Made by a program: the position numbers and the translations under genes
The notes under the pieces: generated by a model
What the model was told of the DNA's origin: nothing
The model's database searches: none
Seen by the model: only the letters and a program-made list of their open reading frames with translations
Assembly: GCF_041378895.1 (NCBI RefSeq)
Contig: NZ_CP144212.1
Coordinates: 1,659,501 to 1,723,500 of the forward strand
Length of the DNA: 64,000 bases
Direction: 5' to 3'
Source: Dechloromonas sp. ZY10
GTDB taxonomy: Bacteria > Pseudomonadota > Gammaproteobacteria > Burkholderiales > Rhodocyclaceae
Shown: positions 8,343 to 62,708 of the stretch, piece by piece
Position numbering within the stretch: the stretch's first letter is position 1
How the letters are laid out: every line of letters starts with the position of its first letter

Positions 8343-9461
8343 TTATACCTTGCCGGCCACGAATTTGACGAGGCGTGTCGCCAGATCGTCCTTTTGGCTG
8401 AGGTCGGCAGCCCACTTTCGGGCGTGTTCGCGCAATTCAGGCCAGTGCTGCAAATAGTCTGGCCAGATTTCGCACGGCAGTTGTTCGCCATTCCAGGCCA
8501 GATGCAGGGCGCGCGTTGCGGCAGCGGCGGCGGGCGACAGCCCGGCGGTATAGCGATCGAGAAAGGCGGTGAGCTTGTCGAGGTGGGCGTTCTCGGCCTG
8601 CGCGTAAATGTGCCAGAGCAGCGGCCGGGCGGCCCACTGGGCGCGGACAAAGGAGTCTTCGCCGCGAATGCAGTTGAGATCGCAGCGCCAGAGCAGCGCG
8701 TCGTAATCGGCCTGCGCCAGAAAAGGGAGAGGAATCAGTTCGAGCGGCCCCCACGACCAGGGGCCGGGATCGTCGGCAGCCTTGCCGAGCAGGGTGCGGA
8801 GGGCAGTTTGCGGCTTGCCGGCGGCAACGTGGATGCGGGTCGGTTGCCCGGCAGCGGCGAGGGCCTGCAGCCAGTCGGAGAGCGGTGCGTGTTCGTAGCA
8901 GAAAAGGCTGATTTCCAGCGGTCGACCGTGTGCGTCCTCGCTCAAGCCGGCTTGCATCGCGTCACGCCGCGCCAGCAGGTTGCCTTCGCGTAGCAGCCCG
9001 CCGCTGCGTTCGCCAAAGCCGGGGAAGAAAAAGTGCTTGGTCAGGGCCAGGCTGGGGTGTGGCGAAGCCAGGCCGTGGCAGTCTTCGGTCCAGCTTTCGG
9101 CGCTCAGGTATTCGAGGTTGATCCAGGCCGGTGGCCGTGAACGTTTGGCCATCGCGGCGACGAAGGCAGGTGGCAGTTCGCAGGCGAAGGCTTCGATCAC
9201 CACGTCGCCAACCGCATCTGGCGCCGCTGCGTCCCAATGGGAGGTGAACTCGTCGGCCCACTGGCGAATTTCGACTCCATGCAGCAATTGCGCGCGGCTG
9301 GCGGGGTCGCTGGCCGGCAGCAGCGGCTGCAGGCTGCGCAGGTCGTCCACCCACAGGCGCACCGGAGTGCGATGTTCCTCGGCGAGCTGGCGGGCAAGGC
9401 GCCAGCAGACGCCAATGTCGCCGTAGTTGTCGATGACGCGGCAGAATAGGTCGAAACGCAT
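8343..9461 (-). CDS. earP: EF-P arginine rhamnosyltransferase EarP
   Basis: A 372-residue inverting glycosyltransferase that transfers rhamnose from dTDP-L-rhamnose to Arg32 of EF-P. The two aspartates implicated in catalysis are present in VIDNYGDIGVCW (Asp11 and Asp15). The dTDP-binding loop NCIRGEDSFVRAQWA is in the C-terminal Rossmann domain. It is adjacent to efp. A copy of the dispersed palindrome (8917-8930) is embedded in frame and encodes His-Gly-Arg-Pro in a linker between the two domains. That linker varies between species. Confidence 0.95.
   Translation of the reverse strand: MRFDLFCRVIDNYGDIGVCWRLARQLAEEHRTPVRLWVDDLRSLQPLLPASDPASRAQLLHGVEIRQWADEFTSHWDAAAPDAVGDVVIEAFACELPPAFVAAMAKRSRPPAWINLEYLSAESWTEDCHGLASPHPSLALTKHFFFPGFGERSGGLLREGNLLARRDAMQAGLSEDAHGRPLEISLFCYEHAPLSDWLQALAAAGQPTRIHVAAGKPQTALRTLLGKAADDPGPWSWGPLELIPLPFLAQADYDALLWRCDLNCIRGEDSFVRAQWAARPLLWHIYAQAENAHLDKLTAFLDRYTAGLSPAAAAATRALHLAWNGEQLPCEIWPDYLQHWPELREHARKWAADLSQKDDLATRLVKFVAGKV
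8917..8930. repeat. Dispersed palindrome copy inside earP
   Basis: Reads AGCGGTCGACCGTG on the plus strand, with the exact core CGGTCGACCG. It lies within the earP reading frame and encodes HGRP on the gene strand. Confidence 0.75.
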
Positions 9462-9511
9462 GGAGGCTTGCTTGGAGTGGGGGAGGGCGGGCGCATGCTA
9501 ACATTCCACTG

Positions 9512-10207
9512 ATGTCTACGCTGCAAACTTCCCCCGCTTTTGCCGACCCCGCGCTGGCCGGGCCGGTCGGTTGTACCGATTGTCCGCGCCTCGCCGAACA
9601 TCTGGCCATGATCCGCGCCCGCGACCCGCACTGGCACGCCCGGCCGGTGCCGGCTTTCGGTCCTCTCGACGCACGCCTGCTGGTGCTTGGCCTGGGGCCG
9701 GGCGAGCGCGGTGCCAACCGCACTGGGCGACCGTTTACCGGCGACGTCGCCGGCGAACTGCTCTACCCGGCGCTGCACCGTTTCGGCTTTGCCAGTGCTG
9801 CCGAGCCGCTCGGCCCGGATCAATGGGCCAACCCCGCAATGCAGCTGCACGATTGCCGGATCACCAACGCGGTGCGCTGCCTGCCGCCGGCCAACAAGCC
9901 GACCCCGGCCGAAATCCGTCAGTGCAACGGCCATCTCCGTGTCGAACTGGCCGCGATGCCGCAGTTGCGGGTGATCGTTGCCCTCGGTCTGGTTGCGCAT
10001 CAAGCCCTGCTGCGGGCCTATGGCGAAAAGCCGACGCATTACACCTTTGGCCACCATGTTCGTCATGCCTTGCCGGACGGGCGCATTTTGCTCGATAGCT
10101 ACCATTGCAGCGGCTACAACTGGCGCACCGGGCGGCTCAGCCGCGAGAGTTTCGAGGCGGTGTTTGCCGAGGTGCGGACGCTGCTCGACGCCCCCCTGGC
10201 TGGATAA
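9512..10207 (+). CDS. Uracil-DNA glycosylase, family 5 (UDGb-like)
   Basis: A 231-residue DNA repair glycosylase that removes uracil and related deaminated bases. It shows the family 5 signature GPGERGANRTGRPFTGD near residue 70 and the C-terminal loop DSYHCSGYNWRTGRL, equivalent to the HPS-type loop. Cysteines in CTDCPRL, together with those in CRITNAVRC, are placed to bind a 4Fe-4S cluster. Note a cysteine where many relatives have proline after the catalytic-loop histidine. It is divergent from earP and is followed by uvrC 24 bases later, giving a small DNA-repair cluster. Confidence 0.88.
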   Translation: MSTLQTSPAFADPALAGPVGCTDCPRLAEHLAMIRARDPHWHARPVPAFGPLDARLLVLGLGPGERGANRTGRPFTGDVAGELLYPALHRFGFASAAEPLGPDQWANPAMQLHDCRITNAVRCLPPANKPTPAEIRQCNGHLRVELAAMPQLRVIVALGLVAHQALLRAYGEKPTHYTFGHHVRHALPDGRILLDSYHCSGYNWRTGRLSRESFEAVFAEVRTLLDAPLAG

Positions 10208-10220
10208 AAACTCCTTTTTC

Positions 10221-10234
10221 CACGGTTGACCGTG
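10221..10234. repeat. Dispersed palindrome copy overlapping the uvrC start
   Basis: CACGGTTGACCGTG, one base from the perfect palindrome. Both candidate uvrC start codons (TTG at 10226, GTG at 10232) lie inside it. The left side is T-rich (CTCCTTTTTC). Confidence 0.8.
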
Positions 10235-12127
10235 ACATTTGACGCAAAAGCCTTTCTCGCGACGCTGACCGAACTCCCTGGCGTCTATCGCATGCTCGCC
10301 GCCGATGGCGAAGTGCTTTACGTCGGTAAGGCCAAAAACCTGAAGCGCCGGGTTGCGTCTTACTTTCGCGACCATCTGCCGAGTCCGCGCATTGCGCACA
10401 TGGTTACGCGCATTGCCAGCATCGAAACCACGGTGACCCGGACCGAGGCCGAGGCGCTGCTGCTTGAAAACAACCTGATCAAGTCGCTGGCGCCGCGCTA
10501 CAACATCCTCTTTCGCGACGACAAGTCTTATCCCTACATTGTCCTGACCCGTGGAGACTATCCCAAGCTGGGTTTCTTTCGTGGCAACCCGGACCGCAAA
10601 GCCGATTATTTCGGCCCCTATCCGTCGGCCTGGGCGGTGCGCGACACGACGCACCTGCTGCAGAAAATGTTCCGCCTGCGCACTTGCGAGGACAGCGTCT
10701 TCGCCAATCGCTCGCGGCCCTGTTTGCTGGCGCAGATCAAGCGCTGCAGTGGTCCCTGCGTCGGCTTGATTTCGCCCGAGGATTACGCCGCCGATGTGCA
10801 GATGGCGTCGATGTTCCTGCTCGGCAAGCAGCAGGAGGTGATCCGCCGGCTCAGCGAGGCGATGGAAAAGGCGGCCGAAAATCTAGCCTTCGAGCAGGCG
10901 GCGGTCTATCGCGACCAGATCCAGTCGCTGCATCAGGTGCAGGAAAAGCAGTTCATCTCCAGCAGCAAGGGCGAGGACGTCGATATCGTCGTCGCCGTGC
11001 ATGAGGCAGGACAACTCTGTGTCAATCTGGCGATGGTGCGCGGCGGTCGTCACCTCGGAGACCGGCCGCTGTTTCCCAATCACGGCGGTGGTTTTGCCGA
11101 AGGTGGCGCCAGCAGCGAGGCCGAGGCGCTGGCCGCCTTCATTCGCCAGCACTATGCCGCGCATCCGGCGCCGGCCAGATTGCTGCTGGCGCCGCTGCCG
11201 GCTGAGGTTGAACCCGTCGAGGCGGCTGAAGAGGGCGGTGGCGAGGCTGCGGGCGGCGAATCGGCAGTGCGCAATCCGCAGGCCGAACTGGCTGAGGAGC
11301 TGGCGGCGCTGGCCGGCCGGCCGGTGCCGATCTTTGCCGCGCGCACGTTGGCGCACAAGGCCTGGGTCGAAATGGCGCGGCAGAACGCGCAGCTGGCGAT
11401 CCTCGCCCGCAACCAGGCGACGCAGCAGCAGGAAGTGCGGCAGCAGGCGCTGCAGGAGGTCTTGCAGCTGGCCGAACTGCCGCAGCGGATCGAGTGCTTC
11501 GACATCAGCCACACCCAGGGCGAGGCGACGGTGGCTTCCTGCGTCGTCTATGACGGCAATGGGATGAAAAAATCCGACTATCGCCGCTTCAATATCCGCG
11601 ACATCCAGCCCGGCGATGACTACGCCGCGATGCGTCAGGCGGTGTTCCGCCGTTACGACGCGCTCGCCGGCGGCGAGGGCAAGGCGCCCGACCTGATCCT
11701 GATCGACGGCGGTAAAGGTCAGGTCGGGTCGGCGTTTGCCGCGTTGAGCGACCTCGGGCTGGCGCATCTGCCGATGATCGGCGTGGCCAAGGGCGAAGAA
11801 CGCAAGCCCGGTCTGGAAACACTGATCTTTGCCGATGGCCGCGAACCGCTCAATCTGGCGACCACGCACCCGGCATTGCATCTGATCCAGGAGGTACGCG
11901 ACGAGGCGCATCGCTTTGCGATCACCGGCCACCGTGCGCGGCGCGCCAAGCCGCGCAAGACGTCAACTTTGGAAAGCCTGCCTGGCGTTGGTCCGGCCCG
12001 GCGCAAGGCGCTGGTCGCGCGTTTTGGCGGCTTGCCCGGGGTCAAGGCGGCAAGCGTCGAACAACTGGCTTCGGTGTCCGGGATCGGCCCGGAGCTAGCC
12101 CAGAAAATCCACGATGCTTTACACTGA
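10232..12127 (+). CDS. uvrC: Excinuclease ABC subunit C
   Basis: A 631-residue subunit that makes both incisions in nucleotide excision repair. Visible domains are the GIY-YIG nuclease at the N-terminus (LPGVYRML...VLYVGKAKNLKRR), a cysteine-containing region near 150-170, a UVR domain near 205-240, an RNase H-like endonuclease domain (ECFDISHTQGE, LILIDGGKGQ) and C-terminal helix-hairpin-helix motifs. The GTG at 10232 fits the usual start MTFDAKAFL best; a TTG two codons earlier is possible. There is no clear Shine-Dalgarno sequence, and the dispersed palindrome covers the start. pgsA begins three bases after the stop. Confidence 0.97.
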   Translation: MTFDAKAFLATLTELPGVYRMLAADGEVLYVGKAKNLKRRVASYFRDHLPSPRIAHMVTRIASIETTVTRTEAEALLLENNLIKSLAPRYNILFRDDKSYPYIVLTRGDYPKLGFFRGNPDRKADYFGPYPSAWAVRDTTHLLQKMFRLRTCEDSVFANRSRPCLLAQIKRCSGPCVGLISPEDYAADVQMASMFLLGKQQEVIRRLSEAMEKAAENLAFEQAAVYRDQIQSLHQVQEKQFISSSKGEDVDIVVAVHEAGQLCVNLAMVRGGRHLGDRPLFPNHGGGFAEGGASSEAEALAAFIRQHYAAHPAPARLLLAPLPAEVEPVEAAEEGGGEAAGGESAVRNPQAELAEELAALAGRPVPIFAARTLAHKAWVEMARQNAQLAILARNQATQQQEVRQQALQEVLQLAELPQRIECFDISHTQGEATVASCVVYDGNGMKKSDYRRFNIRDIQPGDDYAAMRQAVFRRYDALAGGEGKAPDLILIDGGKGQVGSAFAALSDLGLAHLPMIGVAKGEERKPGLETLIFADGREPLNLATTHPALHLIQEVRDEAHRFAITGHRARRAKPRKTSTLESLPGVGPARRKALVARFGGLPGVKAASVEQLASVSGIGPELAQKIHDALH

Positions 12128-12130
12128 CGC

Positions 12131-12721
12131 ATGCCTTTCAATTTACCGATTTTCCTGACCTGGCTGCGCATCGTCGCGATTCCGCTGCTGATTACTGTCT
12201 ATTTTCTGCCTGCGGCGTGGTTGACCGTGGAAGAGCGCAACCTGGCCGCGACGGTGATCTTCATTGCCGCCGCGATCACCGATTGGGCTGACGGCTACCT
12301 GGCGCGGCGCCTGAACCAGACCTCGGCCTTCGGGGCCTTCCTCGATCCGGTGGCTGACAAACTGATGGTGGCGGCGGCCTTGATTGTGCTGGTCCAGCTC
12401 GGGCGTACCGATGCAATCATTGCCAGCATCATCATTGGCCGCGAAATCACCATTTCGGCATTGCGCGAATGGATGGCCAAGATCGGTGCCTCCAAGAGCG
12501 TTGCCGTGTCGATGCTGGGCAAGATCAAGACCACGGCCCAGATGGTGGCAATCCCGATGCTGCTGTTCCAGTCGCCGCTGGCCGGGGTCGATATGCAGCA
12601 GGCTGGCAGTCTGCTGATGTGGGTTGCAGCACTGTTGACCTTGTGGTCGATGGGCTATTACCTGCGCATGGCCTGGCCCGAAATTGCCCGCAGGAGCAAG
12701 AAAATCGACGAAGGGTATTGA
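12131..12721 (+). CDS. pgsA: CDP-diacylglycerol–glycerol-3-phosphate 3-phosphatidyltransferase
   Basis: A 196-residue inner-membrane enzyme that makes phosphatidylglycerol phosphate, the committed step to phosphatidylglycerol and cardiolipin. The CDP-alcohol phosphatidyltransferase signature is intact at about residues 55-80 (DWADGYLARR, then FGAFLDPVADK, giving the spaced aspartates). Several membrane helices are present. It follows uvrC with a three-base gap and is followed by a tRNA cluster whose promoter overlaps the pgsA stop codon, the same gene order as in Escherichia coli. Confidence 0.97.
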   Translation: MPFNLPIFLTWLRIVAIPLLITVYFLPAAWLTVEERNLAATVIFIAAAITDWADGYLARRLNQTSAFGAFLDPVADKLMVAAALIVLVQLGRTDAIIASIIIGREITISALREWMAKIGASKSVAVSMLGKIKTTAQMVAIPMLLFQSPLAGVDMQQAGSLLMWVAALLTLWSMGYYLRMAWPEIARRSKKIDEGY

Positions 12722-12745: not shown

Positions 12746-12761
12746 GCGCGCTCAGTTCAGC

Positions 12762-12966: not shown

Positions 12967-12974
12967 AAAAACAT

Positions 12975-13841: not shown

Positions 13842-16800
13842 ATGATCCGTCTTGCTGCTTTTCCCGTGTTGCCGAGCCTGTTTGCCTTCGTTCTTGGTGC
13901 GATGGCGAGCGTGGCGGTGGGGCAGTTGGATGCCGAGCGTCTGGCTTCTGAGGCACGCAACAAGGTGATTGTCGAGTTGGCGCTGGTACGAGCCCGGATT
14001 GAAGGGAGTCTCAAGGCAACCTTCAATTCTACCGACGGGCTGGTGCATCTGATCTCGCTGCAGGGGGGGATCGACGGGCCGCTGTTCAATGAGATGGCGC
14101 GTCTGGCAATAGGCAAGAATCCTCATGTGCGCAACATCACCGTGGCACCTGACGATGTCGTCCATCATGTCTATCCGCTGGCTGGCAATGAACGGGTTCT
14201 GGGCTTTGCTTTTGCCACGCGTCCGGAGCAAATGCGCACGGTGCAATTGGCCCGTGAGCGGCGCGAGCCGTTGCTGGCCGGGCCGGTCGAGTTGGTTCAG
14301 GGGGGGCGTGCCTTGATTCAGCGGACCCCGGTCTTTGTCCGCCGGCCCGCAGGCGAAGCCTACTGGGGCGCCGTGTCGATCGTGGCCTATATCGATGGCC
14401 TGCTGCAGCCCGAGGGCGAGGCTTTGCCAACCTCGTTGCAGGTTGCAATTCGCGGTCGCGACGGGCTCGGTGCGGCCGGTGCGATGGTCGATGGCGACCC
14501 GGAGGTTTTTGCCCGGCAGCCGGTCCTGATGGATGTGGCGGTCCCCGGCGGCAGCTGGCAGGTGGCGGCAGTGCCGGTAGGTGGCTGGGAGTCTCGTCGT
14601 TTTTACGCTTCGCCCTATTTCCAGGGGGGAATTCTGATCAGTTTGCTGCTAGCGCTGATCATTGGCTTGCGTTCCCGTCATCTGCGACTGTTTGCCGAGC
14701 GCAATGCCATTCTCGAACAGCAGGTACGTGAGCGAGAACGGGCTGAGGCCAGCCTGCGCGATGAGGAAGAGCGTTTCCGGGTGCTGTTCGAACTGTCGCC
14801 CGATCCTGCCTGGATCGTCGAGGGGAATGAGTGCGTGGCTTGGAATGAGGTGGCACGCCAGGTTTTCGGAATTTCCTCCGCCACCAAAACTCTGCATCCG
14901 GCGCAGATTTCGCCGGAATTTCAGCCCGACGGCGAATCTTCCCTGCTCAAGTCGGAGCGGATGATTGCCGAGGCCAGGCGATGCGGTGTTATGCGTTTCG
15001 AATGGATGCACTTGCGTGCCGACGGCCAGCCGTTTACTGCCGAGGTTACGCTGCTTGCCGTGAATATGCGCGAACAGCAGATCGTCTATGCCGAGGTGCG
15101 CGATATTTCCGAGCGCAAGCGTGCCGAGCAGGAACTGCAAGCCAGTCGCAATTTGTTGCAGGCGTTGGTTGAAAGTGCCGGCGCGGTGATTTATGTCTTC
15201 GATCCGCAGGCGCGTTTGTTGTTGTGCAACCAGCAGTTCGAGGAAGTGCTCGGGCAGCCGCGGCAGCAGATGCTGGGCAAAAGCCGGCACGAGTTCATGC
15301 CGGCGGAAGTCGCGGCACAGCATGAAGGCAACGATCTGGCGGTGATCGCCTCGCGCAAGCGGACCAGTTTTGAGGAAATCAACCTCGAAGCCGATGGTTT
15401 GCATCATTACCTGACCATCAAGTGTCCGGTTTTTGCCGATGGGGAGATTCGCGGTGTGGTCGGAATTTCGACTGACATCACCGAGCGCAAGCGGGACGAG
15501 GAGCAGTTGAAGCTGGCCGCAGCCATTCTGGCGTCAACCTCCGAAGGGGTGATCATTACCGACGTCAGCGGGGTCATTGTCGCGGTCAACCGGGCTTTTA
15601 GCGAAATTACCGGCTATAGCGAGGCCGAGGCTTTGGGCCAGAAGCCGAGCATGCTGCGTTCGGAGCGCCAGCCGCCGGATTTTTATCGGGCGATGTGGGC
15701 TGCGATCAACGAAAACGGAACCTGGCAGGGGGAAATCTGGAACCGCCGCAAATCCGGGGAGGCCTACCCCGAGTGGCTGTCGATCAGTACCATCCGCGAC
15801 CGCCAGCAGCAAGTGACGCACTACGTCGGGGTGTTTTCCGATATATCCTCGTTGAAGCTTTCGCAGGAGCGTCTTGAGCATCTTGCCCACTTTGACCCGC
15901 TGACCGATCTTCCCAACCGGGTCTTGTTCCAGGATCGTCTGGCGCATGCGATCGATCGTGCTGCCCGCTACCAGCACGGGATTGCCGTTCTGCTGCTTGA
16001 CCTGGATGGGTTCAAGCACATCAACGACAGCTTGGGCCACCCGGTCGGCGACCAGTTGCTGACGCAGGTGGCAGGCCGTCTCAGCCATTGTGTGCGGGTC
16101 GAGGATACCGTCGCACGTCTTGGGGGGGACGAGTTTGCGGTGATCCTGGCCAATATGCGGGATGCCAGCGATGCGATCGAGGTGGTGCGCAAGATTTTGC
16201 TCAGTATCGAGCGGCCGTTCGATCTCGATGGGACCGGTGCCATGGTCAGCGCCAGCATCGGCATTGCGGTTTATCCCGCCGATGGCAGCAGCGCGATCGA
16301 ACTGGTGCGCAATGCCGATGCCGCGATGTACGGTGCCAAGGAGGCCGGGCGCAATACCTATTGTTTTTACCAGAGCGGGATGACGGAGAAGGCGCAGGAG
16401 CGTTTGCGCCTCGAAGCGGCATTGAAGCGAGCAATCGAACGCAATGAATTCGAAGTCTGGTTCCAGCCGCAAATCAGCCTGCACAGCGGCCGCTTGACCG
16501 GGGCCGAAGCCTTGTTGCGCTGGCGCGATCCGGAGCGCGGGCTGGTGCCTCCGGCCGAGTTCATTCCGCTGGCTGAACGCACGGGCCTGATCTTGCCGAT
16601 TGGCGAACTGGTGGTTGCCGAGGTGGTCGAGCGAGCCCGGGCATGGCGTGATGGCGGCCTCGAGTTCGGTCGCCTGGCGATCAACGTGGCAACGCCGCAA
16701 CTTGAGCGTAGCGATTTTCCGGGGCTTTTGCAGCGGACCCTTGCGGCCGTTGGTGTGCCACCCGAGGTGCTCGAAATCGAGATTACCGAAAGCTTCATCA

Positions 16801-17178: not shown

Positions 17179-17787
17179 TCAGGTGCCCATGTAGCGCCCG
17201 GATTTGTGATTCACCGCCAGGACCAGATTCAGTGCCAGCGCGCCGACCACCGAGAGCAGCACGCTCCACGGGTCGCGCATCAGCAGGCCGCCGACCAGGA
17301 TCAGCAGGTCGGCCGCCATCTGGACCTTGCCCGCCGGCCAGCCGCGGGTGTTTTGCCAGTACAGCGCCAGCACTCCGATGCCGCCAAGGCTGGCCTTGTG
17401 CCGGACAATCATCAGCAGGCCGACGCCGACCATGAAGCCGCCCATGATGGCGGCAAACAGGCGATCGACCCGGGTGAACTCGATCCACTGCGGTAGCCAG
17501 GCTGCATATAGTGAGAGCAGGGCGACGGTGCAGAAAGTCTTGATCGTGAAGGTCCAGCCCATCGCCCGCAGGGCAAAGAGGTAAAAAGGCAGGTTGACCG
17601 AGAACAGCAGCCAGGGCAGCGGCCAGTCAAGCAGGTAGTGCAACAGGAAGGCAAGGCCGACCGCGCCGCCGGAGAGCAGGCCGGCCTGCTGGAACAGGGC
17701 AACGCCAAGGGCAACGAACAATGGTGCCACCAGCAGGGCCTGGGCATCCTCGAACAGGGTGTGGGGTAGGTGTACGGATTTAGGCAT
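17179..17787 (-). CDS. YitT-family membrane protein
   Basis: A 202-residue integral membrane protein with about five or six hydrophobic segments. It has the glycine-rich family turns GLLSGGAVGLAFLLHY and ASLGGIGVLALYW. It belongs to the YitT/DUF161 group of unassigned inner-membrane proteins. The C-terminal soluble DUF2179 domain of long members is absent, giving the short form. It is transcribed divergently from the NIT chemoreceptor, with a perfect copy of the dispersed palindrome between them. Confidence 0.85.
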   Translation of the reverse strand: MPKSVHLPHTLFEDAQALLVAPLFVALGVALFQQAGLLSGGAVGLAFLLHYLLDWPLPWLLFSVNLPFYLFALRAMGWTFTIKTFCTVALLSLYAAWLPQWIEFTRVDRLFAAIMGGFMVGVGLLMIVRHKASLGGIGVLALYWQNTRGWPAGKVQMAADLLILVGGLLMRDPWSVLLSVVGALALNLVLAVNHKSGRYMGT

Positions 17788-17867
17788 GCCGTATTTTGCC
17801 GTTTTGCTGCGCTGATGTGCTCACAGGCAGGGTTTTCCCTGATCCGGGTGAGAGAAAATGGCTTTTT

Positions 17868-17881
17868 CACGGTCGACCGTG
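17868..17881. repeat. Dispersed palindrome, perfect copy
   Basis: A perfect CACGGTCGACCGTG within a longer imperfect dyad (GGCTTTTT on the left, AGAAAGGC on the right). It sits in the divergent intergenic region between the YitT-like gene and the chemoreceptor gene. Confidence 0.9.
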
Positions 17882-18033
17882 AGAAAGGCATTTTTTTTCA
17901 TTTCTGGCATTTTCCGGATGATAAAAATCAACGATTGCAGTAGGCTGGCGGCCTTAAACTTGCGTTCACCATGACCATGGGGCGCGAACGGGCCATGAGT
18001 CCGGGTCAGGGTGTTTCTGAGGAGGGGGTTTTC

Positions 18034-22569: not shown

Positions 22570-22677
22570 AGCTGTTCCCGGGCAAAAAAATGACCGCCCG
22601 AGCTTAGCCGATCAGCCTCTTTCTTGCTATGCGGGAAATCCGCAATCCGTTGCGGGGCGCGGGTTTTTGCCCTGATT

Positions 22678-22691
22678 CACGGTCGACCGTG
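22678..22691. repeat. Dispersed palindrome, perfect copy
   Basis: A perfect CACGGTCGACCGTG. GGTTTTTGCC begins 16 bases to its left, and TATTTCGCCAAAAGG follows on the right. It is intergenic, upstream of upp. Confidence 0.9.
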
Positions 22692-22726
22692 TATTTCGCC
22701 AAAAGGCTCCGGTGGCCGAGGCCCCG

Positions 22727-24055: not shown

Positions 24056-24589
24056 ATGGCGCTCAAATCCACCGTCTTCAAAGCTGAACTGCAGGTTGCG
24101 GACCTCGACCGCGGGCATTTTGCCGATTACGCGCTGACCCTGGCCCGCCATCCCTCCGAAACCGATCTGCGGATGATGGTACGGCTGCTGGCGTTTGCCC
24201 TTTATGCCAGCGAAGACCTGCGCTTTGGCAAGGGTTTGTCGACCGATGACGAACCGGCCCTGTGGGAGGTTGATCCGGCGGGCATCATCAAATGCTGGAT
24301 CGAGGTCGGCCAGCCTGACGAGGACCGAGTGCGCAAGGCGGCAGCCAGATCCGAGCGGGTGGTGGTAATCGCCTACGGCGACAAGGCGGTCGATGTCTGG
24401 TGGCAGCAGAATCGCGATAAATTGGCCCGTTTTGGCAAGTTGACCGTGTTGCGGATCAGCAACGACGAGGGCGAGGCGCTGGCAGCGCTGGCCGAACGCT
24501 CGATGAAACTGGCTTGCACCGTGCAGGAAGGTACGGTCTATCTCGAAGGTTGCGAGTTGCGGCCGCAAGTCTTGCAGGCAGCAGCCTGA
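24056..24589 (+). CDS. yaeQ: YaeQ family protein
   Basis: A 177-residue protein of the YaeQ family, which has a PD-(D/E)XK nuclease-like fold and no settled function. Family blocks are ALKSTVFKAELQVADLDR at the N-terminus, RHPSETDLRMMVRLLAFALYA, LSTDDEPALW and WIEVGQPDEDRVRKA. Length is normal. I chose the ATG at 24056; a GTG two codons upstream is in frame. It is followed by an unrelated reading frame 31 bases later in the same direction. Confidence 0.92.
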   Translation: MALKSTVFKAELQVADLDRGHFADYALTLARHPSETDLRMMVRLLAFALYASEDLRFGKGLSTDDEPALWEVDPAGIIKCWIEVGQPDEDRVRKAAARSERVVVIAYGDKAVDVWWQQNRDKLARFGKLTVLRISNDEGEALAALAERSMKLACTVQEGTVYLEGCELRPQVLQAAA

Positions 24590-26171: not shown

Positions 26172-26189
26172 ACGGTTTTTACGATCTTT

Positions 26190-26203
26190 GCCGGTCGACC
26201 GTG
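26190..26203. repeat. Dispersed palindrome copy at the start of an AraC-type gene
   Basis: GCCGGTCGACCGTG, with two mismatches in the left tip. GGTTTTTACG begins 16 bases to the left. A possible GTG start codon (26201) lies inside the right arm. Confidence 0.8.
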
Positions 26204-28906: not shown

Positions 28907-30802
28907 TCAGCCGCAGCCGTTGGGGCGGATGGTGCCGAGGTTGAGCGTGACGCCCTTTTTCATCTTGCCGATGACGTGCATTTCGCAGGCCTGGCAGTCG
29001 AATTTGAGCACCAGCTTTTCGTTGCCGTTGATCAGCGTCATCGGGTCCGGCTTGATGTACTTCACCTCCTTGGGGCAGAGGTTGAAGCTGTAGCGCAGGC
29101 AATGGCGGGTGATCATCAGCGAGACCATGCCCTTTTCGTTGCCCGCCTCGTAGGCCTCCTCGATCAGCTTGACCCCGTGCTTCTCGTAGAAGGCGCGGGC
29201 CTTGGCGTTGAAGACGTTGCCGAGGTAGGTCAGTTCATCTTGCGGGTAGGGCACCGGGTTGGCTGCCGGTTGGTCGCGTTGCGGGCGCGGATGGCTGGCG
29301 ATGCGGGCGGCGAGCAGTTTTTCCGTTGCCTCGCGGCGCAGCGCATTGACCGCACCGACCGGCAGGAACCACGCTTGCTGCAAGGCCAATTCAACCTCGC
29401 GGCAAGTGAAGGGCGTATTGCCGAACTTGCCCAGGTTTTCCTTGAGCTTGGCCAATGCGGCCTCAGGGTTCTGCGCCAGTTCGCTGCCGATTTTTTCGCT
29501 TTTGGCCAGGTCGACCGTGACACTGAGCTGATCCTCATCGGTGAGCGTCAGCGCAAAGCCCTTTTCGTACTCGGCAAAGCGGGCGCTCAGGGCGATGCGG
29601 CGCTCGGCCGAGTCCTTTTCCAGCGCTCGCTCGAATTCCTGGTCGCGGTTGCGGAACAGGCTGACGCCTTCGGCCAGGTCGGCGGGCATCTCGGCCGGGT
29701 AGAGCTTGCCGCTCTCGACCTTGTTGATGCGCATCCCCTGCACGTCGCCGTGCGCGTCGTGGAAGCAGACGCCGTCGCCGTTGTGGAATTCCTGGTCGCT
29801 ATTCACCGTGATCCAGCCGTCGCCGACCTCGCTCACCTCGCCGATCAGTTCGCCGACGAAGGCCGGCGAATCGAACGCACCGATGTCGTCCTGGCGGCCG
29901 CCGGCAAAGTAGTCGGTATAACCGCGATTGAAGGTCTTGTCCGGCTGCGGGGTGAAGGTGAAGGTCGAGCGGCCGCTGGACGCGCGCACGTACTGCGGGT
30001 TGGCGTCGATGATCTCGTCGAGCAGGCTGCGGTAATGCGCGGTGATGTTCTTGACGTAGGAGAGGTCCTTCAGCCGGCCCTCGATCTTGAAGGAGTTGAC
30101 CCCGGCCTCGATCAGCGCCAGCAGGTTCTCGGACTGGTTGTTGTCCTTCATCGACAGCAGGTGCTGGTTTTCGGTGATCACCTTGCCCTTGTCGTCGACC
30201 AGCGTGTAGGGCAGGCGGCAGGCCTGAGAGCATTCGCCGCGATTGGCGCTGCGCCCGGTGTGCGCGTGGCTGATGTAGCACTGGCCGGAGTAGGCGACGC
30301 ACAGCGCGCCATGCACGAAATATTCGAGCGACAGCGTGGTGGCGGCAGCGACCTTTTTGATTTCGTCGATGCTCATTTCGCGCGCCAGCACCAGCTGCGA
30401 GAAACCGGCGTCTTCGAGGAACCTGGCCTTGGCCGGGTTGCGGATGTCGGTCTGGGTCGAGGCGTGCAGCTGGATCGGCGGCAAGTCCATCTCCAGCAGG
30501 CCCATGTCCTGGATGATCAGCGCATCGACGCCGGCGTGGTAAAGGTCCCAGCACAGCTGGCGCCCGGCTTCGAGTTCCTCATCGTGGAGGATGGTATTGA
30601 CCGCGACGAAGACCTTGGCCCGGTAGAGGTGGGCAAAGTCGCAGAGGCGGGCGATCTCGGCCAGCTCGTTGCCGGCGCCGTAGCGGGCGCCGAAGGCCGG
30701 GCCGCCGATATAGACGGCGTCGGCGCCGTGCTTGATCGCTTCGATGCCGAAATCGGCGTTCTTGGCCGGGGCGAGGAGTTCGATGGGGTGTTGGTAACGC
30801 AT
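28907..30802 (-). CDS. rlhA: 23S rRNA 5-hydroxycytidine C2501 synthase (U32 family)
   Basis: A 631-residue member of peptidase family U32, co-linear with E. coli RlhA (YdcP). RlhA hydroxylates C2501 of 23S rRNA and depends on prephenate and an Fe-S cluster. Diagnostic blocks are HGADAVYIGGPAFGAR, the long GALCVAYSGQCYISH...GRSANRGECSQACRLPY region (about 170-200) and the C-terminal CLRYSFNLCPK...LKFDCQACEMHVIGK. The conserved cysteines are present. The C-terminus is about 20 residues shorter than in E. coli. It lies between a methyltransferase gene and a zinc-ribbon gene in one operon. Confidence 0.88.
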   Translation of the reverse strand: MRYQHPIELLAPAKNADFGIEAIKHGADAVYIGGPAFGARYGAGNELAEIARLCDFAHLYRAKVFVAVNTILHDEELEAGRQLCWDLYHAGVDALIIQDMGLLEMDLPPIQLHASTQTDIRNPAKARFLEDAGFSQLVLAREMSIDEIKKVAAATTLSLEYFVHGALCVAYSGQCYISHAHTGRSANRGECSQACRLPYTLVDDKGKVITENQHLLSMKDNNQSENLLALIEAGVNSFKIEGRLKDLSYVKNITAHYRSLLDEIIDANPQYVRASSGRSTFTFTPQPDKTFNRGYTDYFAGGRQDDIGAFDSPAFVGELIGEVSEVGDGWITVNSDQEFHNGDGVCFHDAHGDVQGMRINKVESGKLYPAEMPADLAEGVSLFRNRDQEFERALEKDSAERRIALSARFAEYEKGFALTLTDEDQLSVTVDLAKSEKIGSELAQNPEAALAKLKENLGKFGNTPFTCREVELALQQAWFLPVGAVNALRREATEKLLAARIASHPRPQRDQPAANPVPYPQDELTYLGNVFNAKARAFYEKHGVKLIEEAYEAGNEKGMVSLMITRHCLRYSFNLCPKEVKYIKPDPMTLINGNEKLVLKFDCQACEMHVIGKMKKGVTLNLGTIRPNGCG

Positions 30803-32340: not shown

Positions 32341-32379
32341 AGCCGCCGCCGCGCTTGGCCGGTGGTTTTTGTCCTTTTA

Positions 32380-32393
32380 CGCGGTCGACCGTG
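32380..32393. repeat. Dispersed palindrome copy
   Basis: CGCGGTCGACCGTG, one mismatch. GGTTTTTGTCCTTTTA lies immediately to its left. It is in the convergent region between the small membrane protein gene and the transglutaminase gene. Confidence 0.85.
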
Positions 32394-34582: not shown

Positions 34583-34634
34583 AACCGGGCCGGGCATCCG
34601 ACCCGGCGGTCTTGGCCGGTTTTTGCCCATTGGC

Positions 34635-34648
34635 CACGGTCGACCGTG
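34635..34648. repeat. Dispersed palindrome, perfect copy (16 bp when extended)
   Basis: A perfect CACGGTCGACCGTG, extended to CCACGGTCGACCGTGG (34634-34649). GGTTTTTGCC lies 17 bases to the left and GAAAAGCCCG to the right. It is intergenic. Confidence 0.92.
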
Positions 34649-34757
34649 GAAAAGCCCGTTTTTTGTCGTCAATTTCCCTGGGGTTTGCGGCAGGACAAAG
34701 CGCTGCCAGTTGCCGGGGGTAGGATGGGGGTGTGGTTTCTGGGTCTCGGAGGTGCGA

Positions 34758-36702: not shown

Positions 36703-36740
36703 CCGCGGGCGCCGGGGTCTGGGTAAAAATGTTCGGTGAC

Positions 36741-36754
36741 CACGGTCGACCGTA
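36741..36754. repeat. Dispersed palindrome copy
   Basis: CACGGTCGACCGTA, one mismatch, preceded by GTGAC and followed by AAAACCGCCC. It is in the convergent region between the cytochrome b5-like gene and ettA. Confidence 0.85.
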
Positions 36755-36783
36755 AAAACCGCCCATTTTCCCATCACCAAACA

Positions 36784-36825: not shown

Positions 36826-38490
<1,665 letters not shown>

Positions 38491-38507
38491 TGAAAAATGC
38501 CTTTTTC

Positions 38508-38521
38508 GTCAGTTGACCGTA
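38508..38521. repeat. Degenerate palindrome copy upstream of ettA
   Basis: GTCAGTTGACCGTA. Only the right half (GTTGACCGTA) fits the consensus, with CTTTTTC to its left. It is 18 bases before the ettA start. Confidence 0.4.
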
Positions 38522-40502: not shown

Positions 40503-40544
40503 GCGTCGGTTGTCGGCGGCTGGCGGCTGGTTTTGGCCGGTTTC

Positions 40545-40558
40545 CACGGTCGACCGTG
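40545..40558. repeat. Dispersed palindrome, perfect copy (16 bp when extended)
   Basis: A perfect CACGGTCGACCGTG, extended to CCACGGTCGACCGTGG. GGTTTTGGCCGGTTTC lies to the left and GCAATCGCCAAAAAC to the right. It is in the convergent region downstream of the phasin terminator. Confidence 0.92.
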
Positions 40559-40572
40559 GCAATCGCCAAAAA

Positions 40573-41163
40573 CTACGGGCAGTTGGCAGGGAGTGCGAGC
40601 AGAGGGAGTGGCATTTGCTGGCGTAGGGTTTCCGGTGGAGCCTGCAGGCAGTAGCGGCGACCGTCGGGTAGGGTGACGCGAACCAGTTCGCCATTCAGGC
40701 GTTCAACCTCGGGGCCGTTGTGGATTTGGCCAGAGGTGGCGAGCGGTTCGAGTGCGAGGCGCGGCTGGCGTTCGGCACGGGCGCGGGCCTGGCGGATTTC
40801 TTCGCGCCAGGCGGCGGTTCCGCGCTCGATCAGCATCGCTGCGTCGACTGCGGGGGGTGCTTGCGATGGTTTGCTTGCTGTCGTCCAGTGCGGGCCTGGT
40901 GCGCTTGCCGCTGCGGTGGAAGTGCGCGGCTCGCGTGTCCGGGGCGACGCCGGGGCGGTGCGTGCCGCCGCCGCTGGCGGCAGGTTGTTGGCGGGGGGCT
41001 TCAACGAGATTTCCGCGGGTAGCCGGATGCTGACCCGCAGCGGGAGCGTGGCTGGAGCCGGGTGAGGCTGGCTGAGGTCAGGCAGGCCATAGCCGGCGCC
41101 AAGATGGAGCAGGCCGGACAGCAGTAGCGGTCCGGCCAGTTTGCGCGCAGCCGGTTCAGGCAT
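40573..41163 (-). CDS. Proline-rich, membrane-anchored protein, uncharacterised
   Basis: A 196-residue protein with one N-terminal hydrophobic segment (about 8-28), then a long Pro/Ala-rich stretch (about 30-110), a basic helix (WREEIRQARARAERQ) and a small C-terminal domain ending VTLPDGRRYCLQAPPET...LLALPANC. The layout recalls TonB-like or periplasm-spanning proteins, but no TonB signature is visible. I do not recognise it. It is the last gene of a four-gene operon and overlaps the winged-helix regulator gene by eight bases. Confidence 0.7.
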   Translation of the reverse strand: MPEPAARKLAGPLLLSGLLHLGAGYGLPDLSQPHPAPATLPLRVSIRLPAEISLKPPANNLPPAAAARTAPASPRTREPRTSTAAASAPGPHWTTASKPSQAPPAVDAAMLIERGTAAWREEIRQARARAERQPRLALEPLATSGQIHNGPEVERLNGELVRVTLPDGRRYCLQAPPETLRQQMPLPLLALPANCP

Positions 41164-41990: not shown

Positions 41991-43037
41991 TCAGCGTTCT
42001 TCAGGGCGCAAGCGAACGATCAGCGAACTGCGGATGCGTGGGCCGTGTTCGGCGCTCAGTTCGGCGCGGATCCACGGAATCGTCAGCCAGCGGGTACGGT
42101 GGGCGTTCTGCCAGCTTTCGCCGGGAAAGCGCATGTCGCCGCTCAGCTTGCCGTTGAGCATGAGCAATTCGATCGGTTCTTGCAGGGTTAGCGGCATTTG
42201 GGTGTGGGTTTCGCGGCCGGCAAAGAGGTCGCCCACCAGCTCGACTTCGACCGGAATCGGCGTTCCGGCCGGCAACGTGATGATCGCGGTACCGTCGGCC
42301 GGCGGCCGGGTGCGGAATTCTTCCAGGCTCAGCAGGGGGCCGTCGGGCAGGGTGCGCAAACGGCTTTGCTGCTCGATCAGCAAGGGCAGCACGACCACCA
42401 CCGCGAGCCAGCCGCAGATTTGCAGCAGGCGGACGTAGGCTGGGCGGTGGCGGCCCCGGTCGAGTTGCAGCGCAAATAGCGGCAGGCCGATGGCAAACAC
42501 CGAGGCCGCCAGCCAGCGCAGGCTTTGGTAAGGCAGGCCGGCGATCAGGCTGACGATGCCGATGGCGATCATCAGGCCGCCGCCCCATTCGAGCAATTCT
42601 TCCGAAAACAGGCCGTGTACGTAGAGGCCGAGACCGGCAAAGATCAGCCAGAGCGAGCAGACCATGTAGCCACCGCCGTAGAAAAACATGGCGAAGGTAG
42701 TCAGGGTGGCGAGCGCCAGCAGCAGCCACATCACTTTGAGCACCTGGCGATGGATGAAGCCCCAGGTTTCGTCGCGGGTGGCCTTGATTTTTCGTGTCCA
42801 GTGCCAGTCGACCGTGACAATCGTACCGATCACCGCGACGAGCAGCGCCAGCCAGGAGAGGGCGCGTTGCTGCAGATCGGGAATCTGCTCCGGTGTGAAA
42901 ATTGACTCGGACAGGGCAAACAGCAGCCCGGCGGGGAGGCCGAGCAGCAACAGGGTGTGCCGTTCCATGCGCAGATTGCGCTGGCCGGAGGCAAGCATGG
43001 CGTGAATTGCCTGAAGTTGTTTTTGCGGAGAGTTCAT
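41991..43037 (-). CDS. Multi-pass membrane protein with C-terminal soluble domain, uncharacterised
   Basis: A 348-residue protein. An N-terminal cytoplasmic helix (QLQAIHAMLASGQRNLRMERHTL) is followed by about six to seven membrane helices (about 30-225). A soluble C-terminal domain (about 240-348) contains ITLPAGTPIPVEVELVGDLFAGRETHTQMPLTL and W...WIRAELS. That domain resembles in pattern the lipoprotein encoded next. I do not recognise a named family. It is the first gene of the operon governed by the tandem palindromes at 43053-43091. Confidence 0.75.
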   Translation of the reverse strand: MNSPQKQLQAIHAMLASGQRNLRMERHTLLLLGLPAGLLFALSESIFTPEQIPDLQQRALSWLALLVAVIGTIVTVDWHWTRKIKATRDETWGFIHRQVLKVMWLLLALATLTTFAMFFYGGGYMVCSLWLIFAGLGLYVHGLFSEELLEWGGGLMIAIGIVSLIAGLPYQSLRWLAASVFAIGLPLFALQLDRGRHRPAYVRLLQICGWLAVVVVLPLLIEQQSRLRTLPDGPLLSLEEFRTRPPADGTAIITLPAGTPIPVEVELVGDLFAGRETHTQMPLTLQEPIELLMLNGKLSGDMRFPGESWQNAHRTRWLTIPWIRAELSAEHGPRIRSSLIVRLRPEER

Positions 43038-44155: not shown

Positions 44156-44171
44156 CACGGTCGACCCGGTG
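44156..44171. repeat. Imperfect palindrome copy upstream of a LysR gene
   Basis: CACGGTCGACCCGGTG: the left half is perfect and the right half carries extra bases. TATGCGGCTTTC is on the left and GAAAAAGCCC about ten bases to the right. It lies in the LysR/EamA divergent region. Confidence 0.6.
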
Positions 44172-44215
44172 TTCGGGTGAAAAAGCCCGGGCCGCTGTTG
44201 AATGGAGCTCCCCGC

Positions 44216-45121: not shown

Positions 45122-45145
45122 GCCAGCGGGGAAATAGCAGTTTTT

Positions 45146-45159
45146 CACGGTCGACCGTT
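45146..45159. repeat. Dispersed palindrome copy
   Basis: CACGGTCGACCGTT, one mismatch. GGAAATAGCAGTTTTT is on the left and GCCAAGGCAAAAAAA on the right. It is in the convergent region after the LysR gene. Confidence 0.85.
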
Positions 45160-45167
45160 GCCAAGGC

Positions 45168-45200
45168 AAAAAAAGCCCGCCGGGCATGTGCCGGGCGGGC
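45168..45200 (-). terminator. Terminator on the reverse strand
   Basis: A GC-rich hairpin (GCCCGCC...GGCGGGC, with an inner GGCA/TGCC) followed on the reverse strand by seven T. It serves the small reverse-strand gene at 45261-45464. Confidence 0.85.
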
Positions 45201-45657: not shown

Positions 45658-47400
45658 TTAGCAGGTTTCCAGGAGATGCGGGCCGCCGGTCGCGAAAGCC
45701 TCGCGGATTGCCGTGGTCAGGGCTTGTGGCGTCTCGATGCGGCGGTAGGCCAGGCCGAAGGTTGCCGCAGCGGCGGCGAAATCGATCTGCTGCGGAGTGC
45801 GCCAGCCGGCGACGAACTCGGGCAGGCTGGCTTGCGGCAGATAATCAAAAATTCCGCCGCCGCCGTTGTTGACCGTGACAATCACCAGATTGCGCCCCTG
45901 CGCCAGCGCCAGTCCGCCCAGGTCATGCTGGGTCGTGAGGTCACCCAGCAGGGCCAGCGCGCGGCCGCGTATTGCGGCGATTCCGGCGGCGCTCGAGATA
46001 TTCCCGTCGATACCGCTGGCGCCGCGATTGCCGAAAAAATCGAGCGCGGCGGGGCCGCAGCCGGAGTGACTGTCGAGTTCGCGGATGGCCAGCGAGTTGC
46101 CGATGAAGCAGGCCGTATCGTCCGGCACGCCGGCGAGGATGGCGGCGATGCGCCGGGCTGCGCAGCGACCGGACCCCGGTCGGTTGTCCAGCGTGGCTGC
46201 GGCGGAGGCCGGGTGGAGGCTCGGGGGGACGGCAGTTGGCTCTGTTTCGACCTCGGCAGCTGCGGCTGCCTCCCAGGCAGCAAAAGCAGCGCTCCAGGCA
46301 GGCGTGGCCGGCTGCAGGTCTTGCTGTAGCAAGGCTTCGCAAGCCGCCAGCGGGCTGGCGTGCAGCAACAGGTCGAGCCGCTGCTGCGGGTCGCGCCAGG
46401 CCGGCGCCGGGTCGATCAAGGCCTGCCAGCGGGCGCTGGCGACGAAATTTTGCAAGGGCCGGGTGACCGGCCAGGGGCCGATACGCAGTACCCATTCCGG
46501 CGGCGTCGCGTCCAGCGCGGCTTGCACCTGTGGTTGTTTGAGCCAGTCGGCATAGCGGACGCAGGTTCGGGCACCGGCTGCTGCCGGCGTTTGCCAATGC
46601 CGGCCAAAGCGCAGGCCGGAGAGCGGTTCGAGCAGCAGCGGGCAGCCCAGGCGGGCGGCTAACACGGTCAACGCGGCAAACAGGGCATTTTTCTCGGCGG
46701 CGCTGCGGGCCGGCAATTCGCCGCAGACAATGGCGCCGGGGCGGCCGGAAATCTGCGTGGCCAGCCGGCGGATCGCTTCCGTTTGCGGCAGTGCCGGTGG
46801 CTGGCTGAGCGACAGCACGGGGGCGGGGAGCCATGCAGGCGTCGCTCCGGCGGGGATCAGCGGCTCGTGGAACGGGAGGTTGAGATGGACCGGCCCGGCT
46901 TGTGGCCAGCTGCTTTCTTCGACTGCCCGGGCGGCGACACGCCACAGCCCCTCGGGGGAAAAGGCCTGGTCCAGAGCCAGCCGGGGGGCCGGCAAGGCGT
47001 GGCGGGCGCGGACAAAATCGCTGAACAGCGCGCTTTGTGCAACCGTCTGATTGGCACCCCAGCCCTGGATTTCCGGCGGCCGGTCGGCCGAGAGCAGGAG
47101 CAGCGGGATGTCGGCCTGGCTGGCTTCGATCACGGCCGGTAGCCAGTTGGCCGGGGCGGTGCCCGAGGTGGCGACGAGCAGCGCTGGCCGGCGGCTGGCC
47201 TTGCCCAGGCCCAGGGCAAAAAAAGCGGCACTGCGCTCGTCGATTGCCAGCGTGCAGCGGATGCCGGGGGTGCGCAGCAGGGCAAGGGTCAGCGGGGTCG
47301 AGCGCGAACCGGGGGAAATCACCGCTTCGTCGATTCCGGCGGCGACAAAGCCGGCGATCAGGGCTTGCGCCGACAGGTAGTTCAGGGTGCCGATATCCAT
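45658..47400 (-). CDS. menD: 2-succinyl-5-enolpyruvyl-6-hydroxy-3-cyclohexene-1-carboxylate synthase
   Basis: A 580-residue thiamine-diphosphate enzyme that carries out the SEPHCHC synthase step from isochorismate and 2-oxoglutarate in menaquinone synthesis. Diagnostic blocks are VISPGSRSTPLTLAL (about residue 28), IDERSAAFFALGLGKAS and TSGTAPANWLPAVIEAS in the PYR half, and FGNRGASGIDGNIS...LLGDLTTQHDLG and VTVNNGGGGIFDYLPQ in the ThDP/Mg half. The protein is complete. It is the only men gene in the window, at the end of the smpB–TRIC–menD stretch. Its presence implies menaquinone use, probably under low oxygen. Confidence 0.94.
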   Translation of the reverse strand: MDIGTLNYLSAQALIAGFVAAGIDEAVISPGSRSTPLTLALLRTPGIRCTLAIDERSAAFFALGLGKASRRPALLVATSGTAPANWLPAVIEASQADIPLLLLSADRPPEIQGWGANQTVAQSALFSDFVRARHALPAPRLALDQAFSPEGLWRVAARAVEESSWPQAGPVHLNLPFHEPLIPAGATPAWLPAPVLSLSQPPALPQTEAIRRLATQISGRPGAIVCGELPARSAAEKNALFAALTVLAARLGCPLLLEPLSGLRFGRHWQTPAAAGARTCVRYADWLKQPQVQAALDATPPEWVLRIGPWPVTRPLQNFVASARWQALIDPAPAWRDPQQRLDLLLHASPLAACEALLQQDLQPATPAWSAAFAAWEAAAAAEVETEPTAVPPSLHPASAAATLDNRPGSGRCAARRIAAILAGVPDDTACFIGNSLAIRELDSHSGCGPAALDFFGNRGASGIDGNISSAAGIAAIRGRALALLGDLTTQHDLGGLALAQGRNLVIVTVNNGGGGIFDYLPQASLPEFVAGWRTPQQIDFAAAAATFGLAYRRIETPQALTTAIREAFATGGPHLLETC

Positions 47401-55257: not shown

Positions 55258-56892
<1,635 letters not shown>

Positions 56893-60280: not shown

Positions 60281-60624
60281 GGTACAGCGCTCCGTTAAAT
60301 GACAGGAATGAATCCGTGCTCTCTGGCGGTTGGGGCCGTGTGACAGTTCCGGATTATACACACTACTGTTTTTTTGTACAGTATTTGTCTGGCGGGTGCT
60401 TTGTTGTGCGTAGCCCGAATTTTGTTTTTTTGACAAAAGCAGTATTCATGCCTGTTTGTGGAGAGCGACAATTCAGCCTAGTTTTCTGCTCTCCTTTTGC
60501 GGTTCGGAGGGGCGCGAATCTGCGGTATGATGCAGACCTTTGGCCGCAGAGCCGGATGGGCCGTTGGCAGCTTGACTGTCGCGTCTTTCGTATCACGCTG
60601 TTCTTCCCGGATTATTTTTTTCCT
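60281..60624. other. Divergent regulatory region between the small SOS-type gene and ppiD
   Basis: About 340 bases, AT-richer than the surroundings, with no gene I can support. It holds the LexA-box promoter for the reverse-strand small gene and presumably a ppiD promoter; a TATGAT at 60526-60531 is a weak -10 candidate. An open frame from 60316 to ppiD is not protein-like. Confidence 0.6.
60353..60383 (-). promoter_or_regulatory. LexA (SOS) box overlapping a reverse-strand promoter
   Basis: TACTGTTTTTTTGTACAGTA (60364-60383) has the complete CTGT-N8-ACAG core and matching TA/TA ends. The reverse-strand -10 TATAAT is at 60353-60358, and TGTACA within the box serves as a plausible -35 with a spacer of about 16 bases. 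LexA would block the promoter of the 56-residue gene. Confidence 0.85.
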
Positions 60625-62499: not shown

Positions 62500-62523
62500 T
62501 TCCGGCGGTCAGGCGCTGAAAAC

Positions 62524-62550
62524 AAAAACGGACCTGCGGGTCCGTTTTTG
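62524..62550. terminator. Terminator after ppiD
   Basis: Stem AAAAACGGACC/GGTCCGTTTTT with a small TGCG loop and T runs on both strands. It lies 25 bases after the stop. Confidence 0.9.
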
Positions 62551-62631
62551 TTTGTCCTTGGCCACCTGGCTGCCGCCATGGATGGCCGCTTGCAGCTTCG
62601 CAGGTGAGGGGGTGGTTGAAGATGTTGATAT

Positions 62632-62663
62632 AAAAAAGCCGACGGCACGGCGTCGGCTTTTTT
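62632..62663. terminator. Second terminator, ppiD/fabI convergent region
   Basis: Stem AAAAAAGCCGAC/GTCGGCTTTTTT, perfectly symmetric, so it can work on both strands. Confidence 0.9.
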
Positions 62664-62668
62664 GATTT

Positions 62669-62708
62669 TTCCGGCGTCGACCGTGTGTGACCACGGTCGA
62701 CGCCGGAA
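62669..62708. repeat. Inverted pair of palindrome half-sites
   Basis: A perfect 17-bp inverted repeat with a six-base loop. The left arm is TTCCGGCGTCGACCGTG (62669-62685) and the right arm CACGGTCGACGCCGGAA (62692-62708). Each arm contains the right or left half of the dispersed palindrome. It lies 14 bases from the fabI stop. Confidence 0.9.

Follow-up and report, generated by a model that had tools for sequence, protein, structure and literature searches.

What does a ten-base palindrome that recurs throughout a 64,000-nucleotide stretch of the Dechloromonas sp. ZY10 genome stand for? This stretch, hereafter the window, comprises bases 1,659,501-1,723,500 of the home genome (G000; one contig of 3,568,927 bp, about 62% GC), and a first-pass annotation had singled out its eleven exact copies of the core CGGTCGACCG, which were thought to mark either a small mobile element (REP/RPE-like), a selectively maintained element, or a dense binding site for a nucleoid or segregation protein. 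With a probability of roughly 75%, and on the strength of sequence patterns, we read the repeat as the DNA uptake sequence of the genus Azonexus in the GTDB delimitation, which we take to include Dechloromonas; it would be the third such system after those of the Pasteurellaceae and the Neisseriaceae.

All eleven cores were recovered in place, eight of them between called genes and three (8919, 33141 and 56563) within genes, and their chance expectation is indeed low, since 100 dinucleotide shuffles of the window gave a mean of 0.10 and a maximum of 2. The variants noted at 10221, 38508 and 44156, as well as the inverted pair at 62669-62708, are also present, each with a GTYGACCG core. Genome-wide, the palindrome core occurs 385 times in ZY10, compared with 66 for the palindrome read backwards, and in a sample of 864 kb (24% of the genome), from which the profile and consensus figures below also derive, 230 both-strand counts were obtained where an order-4 Markov model expects 24.3. 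The A/T-rich arms are real and fixed in position, as 277 of the 304 GTYGACCGTG words in the sample have A or T at all three positions from -18 to -16 (background, 5.8% of all positions). The palindrome is real and the proposal of a selectively maintained, dense site is supported, but the palindrome is not the basic unit: this candidate was rejected because the non-palindromic word GTTGACCGTG carries the same tracts. The 14-mer CACGGTCGACCGTG (164 copies in ZY10) consists of two asymmetric units, head to head and overlapping, and many units are non-palindromic and located inside genes.

The anatomy of the unit was determined from two sets of profiled words, GTTGACCGTG (89 places) and GTCGACCGTG without a preceding CG (72 places), both of which gave the same asymmetric pattern: an A/T frequency of 0.90-0.99 at -18 to -16, a G+C-rich segment between the tracts, a weaker A/T preference around -8 (0.65-0.70), and, immediately 3' of the core, no more than a weak increase in A/T. 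Since non-palindromic words share this profile, the unit is to be read as an A/T tract, a second A/T tract one helical turn on, GTYGACCG, and a variable 3' end, the tracts lying about one and about two helical turns upstream; beyond the A/T tracts, the profile contained no common sequence. Double (palindromic) places make up 71 of the 321 distinct places in the sample. For counting, the pattern W3-N16-GTYGACCG was used, with the reversed pattern as control. Of the 44 GTYGACCG words in the window, 31 have an A/T tract; the units of the window are as follows (window coordinates).

3099-3127, minus strand: unit tttt..GTCGACCGTG, in gene 2920-3420 (minus)
5625-5653, plus strand: unit tttt..GTTGACCGTG, in a gene
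6904-6932, minus strand: unit GTTGACCGTA, in a gene
8902-8930, plus strand: unit aaaa..GTCGACCGTG, in a gene; core palindrome at 8919
10206-10234, plus strand: unit aaaa..GTTGACCGTG, at the called start of gene 10226-12127 (plus)
12201-12229, plus strand: unit attt..GTTGACCGTG, in a gene
15581-15609, minus strand: unit GTTGACCGCG, in a gene
17574-17602, plus strand: unit GTTGACCGAG, in a gene
17853-17896, both strands: palindromic double unit, intergenic; the tract is perfect on the minus strand and imperfect (agaa) on the plus strand
22663-22706, both strands: palindromic double unit, intergenic; W3 perfect on the plus strand, not on the minus
24420-24448, plus strand: unit aatt..GTTGACCGTG, in a gene
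26175-26203, plus strand: unit, intergenic; core palindrome at 26192
29491-29519, plus strand: unit in the U32-peptidase-family gene 28907-30802 (minus)
32365-32393, plus strand: unit, convergent intergenic; core palindrome at 32382
33124-33152, plus strand: unit in a gene; core palindrome at 33141
34620-34663, both strands: palindromic double unit, intergenic; both tracts perfect
36726-36769, both strands: palindromic double unit, convergent intergenic; both tracts perfect
38347-38375, minus strand: unit in a gene with an ABC-transporter domain; possibly a codon-driven copy, since relatives conserve part of its core as coding sequence
38493-38521, plus strand: unit aaaa..GTTGACCGTA, intergenic; the variant noted at 38508
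40530-40573, both strands: palindromic double unit, convergent intergenic; both tracts perfect
42788-42816, plus strand: unit in a gene
44156-44184, minus strand: unit tttt..GTCGACCGTG, intergenic; the variant noted at 44156
45131-45174, both strands: palindromic double unit, convergent intergenic; both tracts perfect
45849-45877, plus strand: unit in a gene
46663-46691, minus strand: unit in a gene
56546-56574, plus strand: unit in the GMP-synthase-domain gene 55258-56892 (plus); core palindrome at 56563
62657-62720, both strands: plus-strand unit (62657-62685) and an inverted, tractless GTCGACCGTG (62692-62720), convergent intergenic

The consensus of the unit is unusually strict. While a tract accompanies 392 of the 575 perfect GTYGACCG words in the sample, and 79 of the 89 GTTGACCGTG words, it accompanies only 179 of the 2,872 words with one mismatch (6.2%, against the background of 5.8%), the chief exception being GTGGACCG, with a tract in 12 of 24. 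Perfect copies of the unit far outnumber one-mismatch copies, as in known uptake sequences: an excess of perfect over singly mismatched copies ("many more") is described as common to the uptake signal sequence (USS) of the Pasteurellaceae and the DNA uptake sequence (DUS) of the Neisseriaceae, and a strong consensus as a puzzling trait of both, very unlike ordinary regulatory sites (PMC1626085, part of the text). The copy number agrees as well, for W3-N16-GTYGACCG occurs 1,298 times in ZY10 (reversed control, 60) and W3-N16-GTYGACCGTG 946 times, within the hundreds to thousands of genome-wide copies that characterize uptake sequences.

Extending the count to 76 genomes of the genus revealed a patchy distribution, with 429-2,410 units in 40 genomes (termed rich), 25-210 in the other 36 (termed poor), and 18-67 for the reversed control. 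Among 297 genomes of the family, 12 of which belong to the genus (ZY10 included), none of the 285 from outside it rose above 55 units, and a few of these exceed their own control (G165, 55 vs 23; G159, 54 vs 18). In G165, which belongs to another genus of the family, four of seven GTYGACCGTG units lie within C38:40227-51366, either an ancestral trace or acquired DNA. In the rich genome G071, a word bearing the unit recurs six times at an exact spacing of 321 bp (C1:2536815-2538448), as a tandem repeat carrying the unit. Viral contigs yielded 104 stretches with the 14-mer, in one place each among the 80 matches listed, with no sign of a viral family; in the contig scan, multiple places per contig occurred, among the matches listed, only in rows of Azonexus sp. 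MAG.149.

The core also varies within the genus. Its outer two bases are mostly TG in ZY10 and in its sister genome of the same genus, G011, and, as judged from 40-kb samples, TG or TA in G068, mostly CA in G043, and loosely constrained in G071. A GCTGACCG form with the same tract is prominent, among the 76 genomes, only in G029 (133 vs control 14), G075 (102 vs 16) and G069 (79 vs 15), the other genomes having 14-67; as all three are poor in GTYGACCG, it is possibly a further dialect. Standing out in just 3 of 76 genomes, this variant was rejected as an explanation of the poor genomes, and the GCTGACCG excess in G065 has no A/T tract attached. When seven poor genomes were searched de novo for other enriched words, 40 kb apiece, no word combined the tract architecture with a strong excess.

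Could the unit be a site for an abundant nucleoid or chromosome-organising protein, with the DNA bent over phased A/T tracts and kept by selection? The helical phasing of the tracts would suit such a protein, and so would a dense and slightly even spacing (coefficient of variation of the gaps, 0.89 vs 0.96 for random placement) and the sites common to ZY10 and G011: over 64 kb aligned at 87.6% identity, 21 of 22 ZY10 sites have a counterpart in G011 and 21 of 25 G011 sites one in ZY10, compared with 24 of 52 shuffled 10-mers pooled from both sides (Fisher p = 5e-5 and 0.003). Against it stand the scarcely enriched single-mismatch sites, unlike those of ordinary proteins, so that the consensus is nearly all-or-none, the patchy presence within the genus, and the lack of an orientation bias between replichores. 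As whole-contig strand counts are indecisive, because opposite replichores cancel, 41 stretches were split by GC skew; 189 units lay on the G-rich strand and 203 on the other (p = 0.51), with strand counts of 101 and 105 where the skew was positive and 98 and 88 where it was not. A polar motif of the KOPS or Chi type is therefore ruled out. The unit is also depleted in low-GC DNA, with 1 unit in 44 kb below 54% GC (Poisson p = 1e-5 against uniform density), which supports, short of proof, an avoidance of recent acquisitions. Taken together, these results disfavour the nucleoid or segregation protein proposed in the first pass and make a site of this kind unlikely. The sites common to ZY10 and G011, the even orientation between replichores and the low-GC depletion count at the same time in favour of an uptake sequence. 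Two stretches of ZY10 with about 50% GC (L141:9685-18929 and L143:1-8100) belong to 20-kb stretches with 1 unit each; one of them contains sugar-nucleotide, TPR and DUF4214 genes, the other CheA-like, MotA/MotB-like and SRP54-GTPase-domain genes.

The location of the units and the comparison of orthologous sites bear on mobility. Scoring each half of a palindrome separately, and using our own codon-based gene calls, 277 units of the sample divide into 140 in genes, 128 in spacers and 9 at edges, the spacer share being an upper estimate since the calls make 81% of the sequence coding and the real fraction is probably higher. The GTT form, which is not palindromic, lies in genes in 59 of 79 cases, and the palindromic 14-mers in spacers in 65 of 92. 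We then compared 38 sites (W3-N16-GTYGACC, any 3' end) from the rich genomes G071, G068, G043, G000 and G011 with those parts of seven poor genomes that BLAST could align to them. In the resulting 160 site-by-genome comparisons, in which some words represent plain codon conservation, several rich genomes may contribute the same orthologous site, and changes are not polarised as to direction, the core was substituted without a gap in 123, identical in 12 and gapped in 25, while the surrounding 50 bp had no gap in 98 and a gap of at least 10 in 14. The substitutions and the genic copies agree with the origin by point mutation, in genes and spacers, that is a hallmark of uptake sequences. An example is the site at 29491-29519 in the U32-peptidase-family gene, which was aligned in 32 relatives: the rich genomes G068, G043, G002 and G012 have tracts and a GGTTGACCGT word, with short alignment gaps, and poor genomes such as G065, G018, G036 and G040 have unrelated codons.

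A dispersed mobile palindrome copied into spacers (REP, RPE or MITE-like), the other proposal of the first-pass annotation, would account for the high copy number and for the preference of the palindromic form for spacers, as in REP/RAYT elements, which are likewise dispersed palindromes in spacers. It is largely contradicted and very improbable, as half of the units are in genes, the sites of relatives differ mostly by substitution, with few gaps of the length that insertion of a discrete unit would leave, the profile has no shared sequence outside the tracts, and ZY10 gave no Y1/RAYT (Y1_Tnp) match, while the E. coli control was positive; REP/RAYT elements were rejected on the missing RAYT match and the substitution pattern.

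Within spacers, units are densest between convergent genes (45 units in 16.8 kb), followed by codirectional (60 in 76.2 kb) and divergent (18 in 38.3 kb) spacers. Predicted hairpins with arms of at least 20 bases, at least 85% paired, occur at 13 of 67 palindromic ACGGTCGACCGT sites, the copy at 17869 in the window being predicted to form a long one (-36.1 kcal/mol, z = -5.9), and the 14 close pairs (9-59 bp) include 9 inverted ones with a spacing of 30-34 bp. By position and predicted fold, the convergent-spacer copies thus resemble the closely spaced inverted copies that serve as terminators in known uptake-sequence systems, and they may well terminate transcription. That the repeat is an intrinsic-terminator family with a favoured stem and nothing else, although suggested by the same convergent enrichment and long hairpins, has very little probability, since it leaves the coding copies, the non-palindromic GTT form and the tracts of the GTTGACCGTG words unexplained. 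A restriction-modification or methylation signal, an iterated word like HIP1, is just as improbable, for although GTYGAC lies within the core, such a signal would not need A/T tracts 16 bp away, nor be so intolerant of single changes over 8 bases. HIP1 of cyanobacteria is a highly iterated palindrome for which we know of no flanking tracts, whereas the present unit is asymmetric.

How, then, does the repeat compare with the established uptake sequences? According to the part of PMC12616744 available, the Pasteurellaceae and the Neisseriaceae are the only families reported to use them. The Pasteurellaceae USS (Hin type AAGTGCGGT, Apl type ACAAGCGGT) is alike in having a short core flanked on one side by two A/T-rich segments (PMC1626085, PMC12616744), and in its strong consensus, genic and spacer copies, mutational origin, close inverted terminator copies and subtypes (PMC1626085, PMC12616744, PMC1852404; each in part). 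It differs in that the core here, GTYGACCG, is unrelated to AAGTGCGGT and ACAAGCGGT, the host is a betaproteobacterial genus of about 62% GC, the tracts are about 10 bp apart rather than the 12 of the Hin type, overlapping palindromic pairs are heavily used (ZY10 and G011), several core variants exist in one genus, and uptake is here deduced from sequence. The Neisseriaceae DUS (GCCGTCTGAA and its dialects), also betaproteobacterial, shares similar copy numbers, dialects and terminator pairs and is bound by the minor pilin ComP (PMC12616744, in part), and a pilin with the ComP_DUS domain is encoded in 70 of the 76 Azonexus genomes. In contrast, the DUS is described, in the available parts of PMC1626085 and PMC12616744, as a continuous word without flanking motifs, whereas here the A/T tracts belong to the unit, the core is not the continuous, CTG-centred one, and pilin presence does not track the motif. 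Because it has neither the USS nor the DUS core, we file the repeat in neither family, despite the sequence hallmarks. It is likely that the repeat represents a third system of independent origin, in a betaproteobacterial genus that does not belong to the Neisseriaceae, where the core has several variants and the system was gained or lost repeatedly; its resemblance to the Pasteurellaceae USS, which extends to the pair of A/T tracts spaced by about one helical turn, would then be convergence.

From these patterns we infer uptake, a receptor, drive and termination. A type IV pilus uptake machine would carry a surface receptor that binds the word preferentially; DNA bearing the word would be taken up and recombined more often, and near-consensus variants would for this reason accumulate in genes and spacers by molecular drive. 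Spacer copies would have been co-opted as transcription terminators in inverted or overlapping pairs, which would explain why palindromes were what the first pass noticed. ComEC is found in 71 of the 76 genus genomes, including all 51 good ones.

Several observations weigh against an uptake sequence. (i) Pilins with the ComP_DUS domain occur in rich and poor genomes alike and single out no candidate receptor; at 20 pilin loci read by eye (13 from rich and 7 from poor genomes), both groups showed pilin-like frames, frequently close to a FimT-like pilin, and a PDB search with the ZY10 pilin matched general type IV pilins and no entry named ComP. (ii) Among genomes with a match, 5 of 39 rich (G002, G008, G019, G055, G061) and 7 of 32 poor ones (G005, G018, G029, G035, G036, G044, G057) have a broken or incomplete comEC, the structure of the gene having been checked in 16 genomes and the gene taken as whole in the rest from open-frame lengths; in G008 and G019 the pieces are on two contigs, and in 5 genomes the N-terminal third alone was undetected. 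As this difference is not significant (Fisher p = 0.35), comEC integrity does not track motif number. Broken comEC in rich genomes is the main weakness: the breaks are recent, or assembly errors, or the uptake reading is wrong. (iii) At 29491-29519, the tract or the complete core is missing from the rich genomes G054, G039, G072 and G058, and poor genomes such as G044 and G067 retain a core-like word. (iv) On a one-gene tree (an ABC-F-like gene from 67 of the 76 genomes, 37 rich and 30 poor), rich and poor genomes are interspersed and weakly clustered, with 18 changes between the two states, at least 8 of them forced by well-supported branches; shuffled labels gave a mean of 22.2 changes, and as few as 18 in 25 of 500 shuffles. 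The 18 changes thus reflect repeated loss or gain, or gene-tree noise. (v) The evidence for core variants, which as dialects of an uptake sequence would be expected to follow phylogeny, comes from few genomes, and unit density rises with GC in general, the low-GC depletion being one part of this trend. (vi) Our literature searches turned up no data on transformation or DNA uptake in this genus among the papers listed. Likewise, no report of this repeat was found among the papers listed from the open-access literature, searched by sequence words and by uptake-sequence, family, order and genus names and judged by title, and the word Dechloromonas is absent from the main text of PMC1852404 and PMC5217627 as available. 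Neither the ComP_DUS pilin nor the state of comEC discriminates rich genomes, and both were discarded as markers.

In both G002 (C33) and G044 (C1), comEC is split near residue 290 (ZY10 numbering) into pieces about 33 kb apart, and in G019 it also breaks near residue 290, at contig ends; this looks like the work of a mobile element targeting comEC.

Why self-specific DNA uptake evolves is debated. If the repeat is an uptake sequence, it would represent a third origin, and the 40 rich and 36 poor genomes among the 76 would serve as natural replicates in which the unit was gained, lost or altered in its core. There would be an independent receptor to find, one could test whether uptake mechanically requires two A/T tracts in helical spacing, and the unit would suggest how to transform these organisms.

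Finally, the ZY10 sample contains about 51 copies of a separate repeat with the ten-mers AGCTCCCTCT and AAGCTACAAT, which is probably a CRISPR array.

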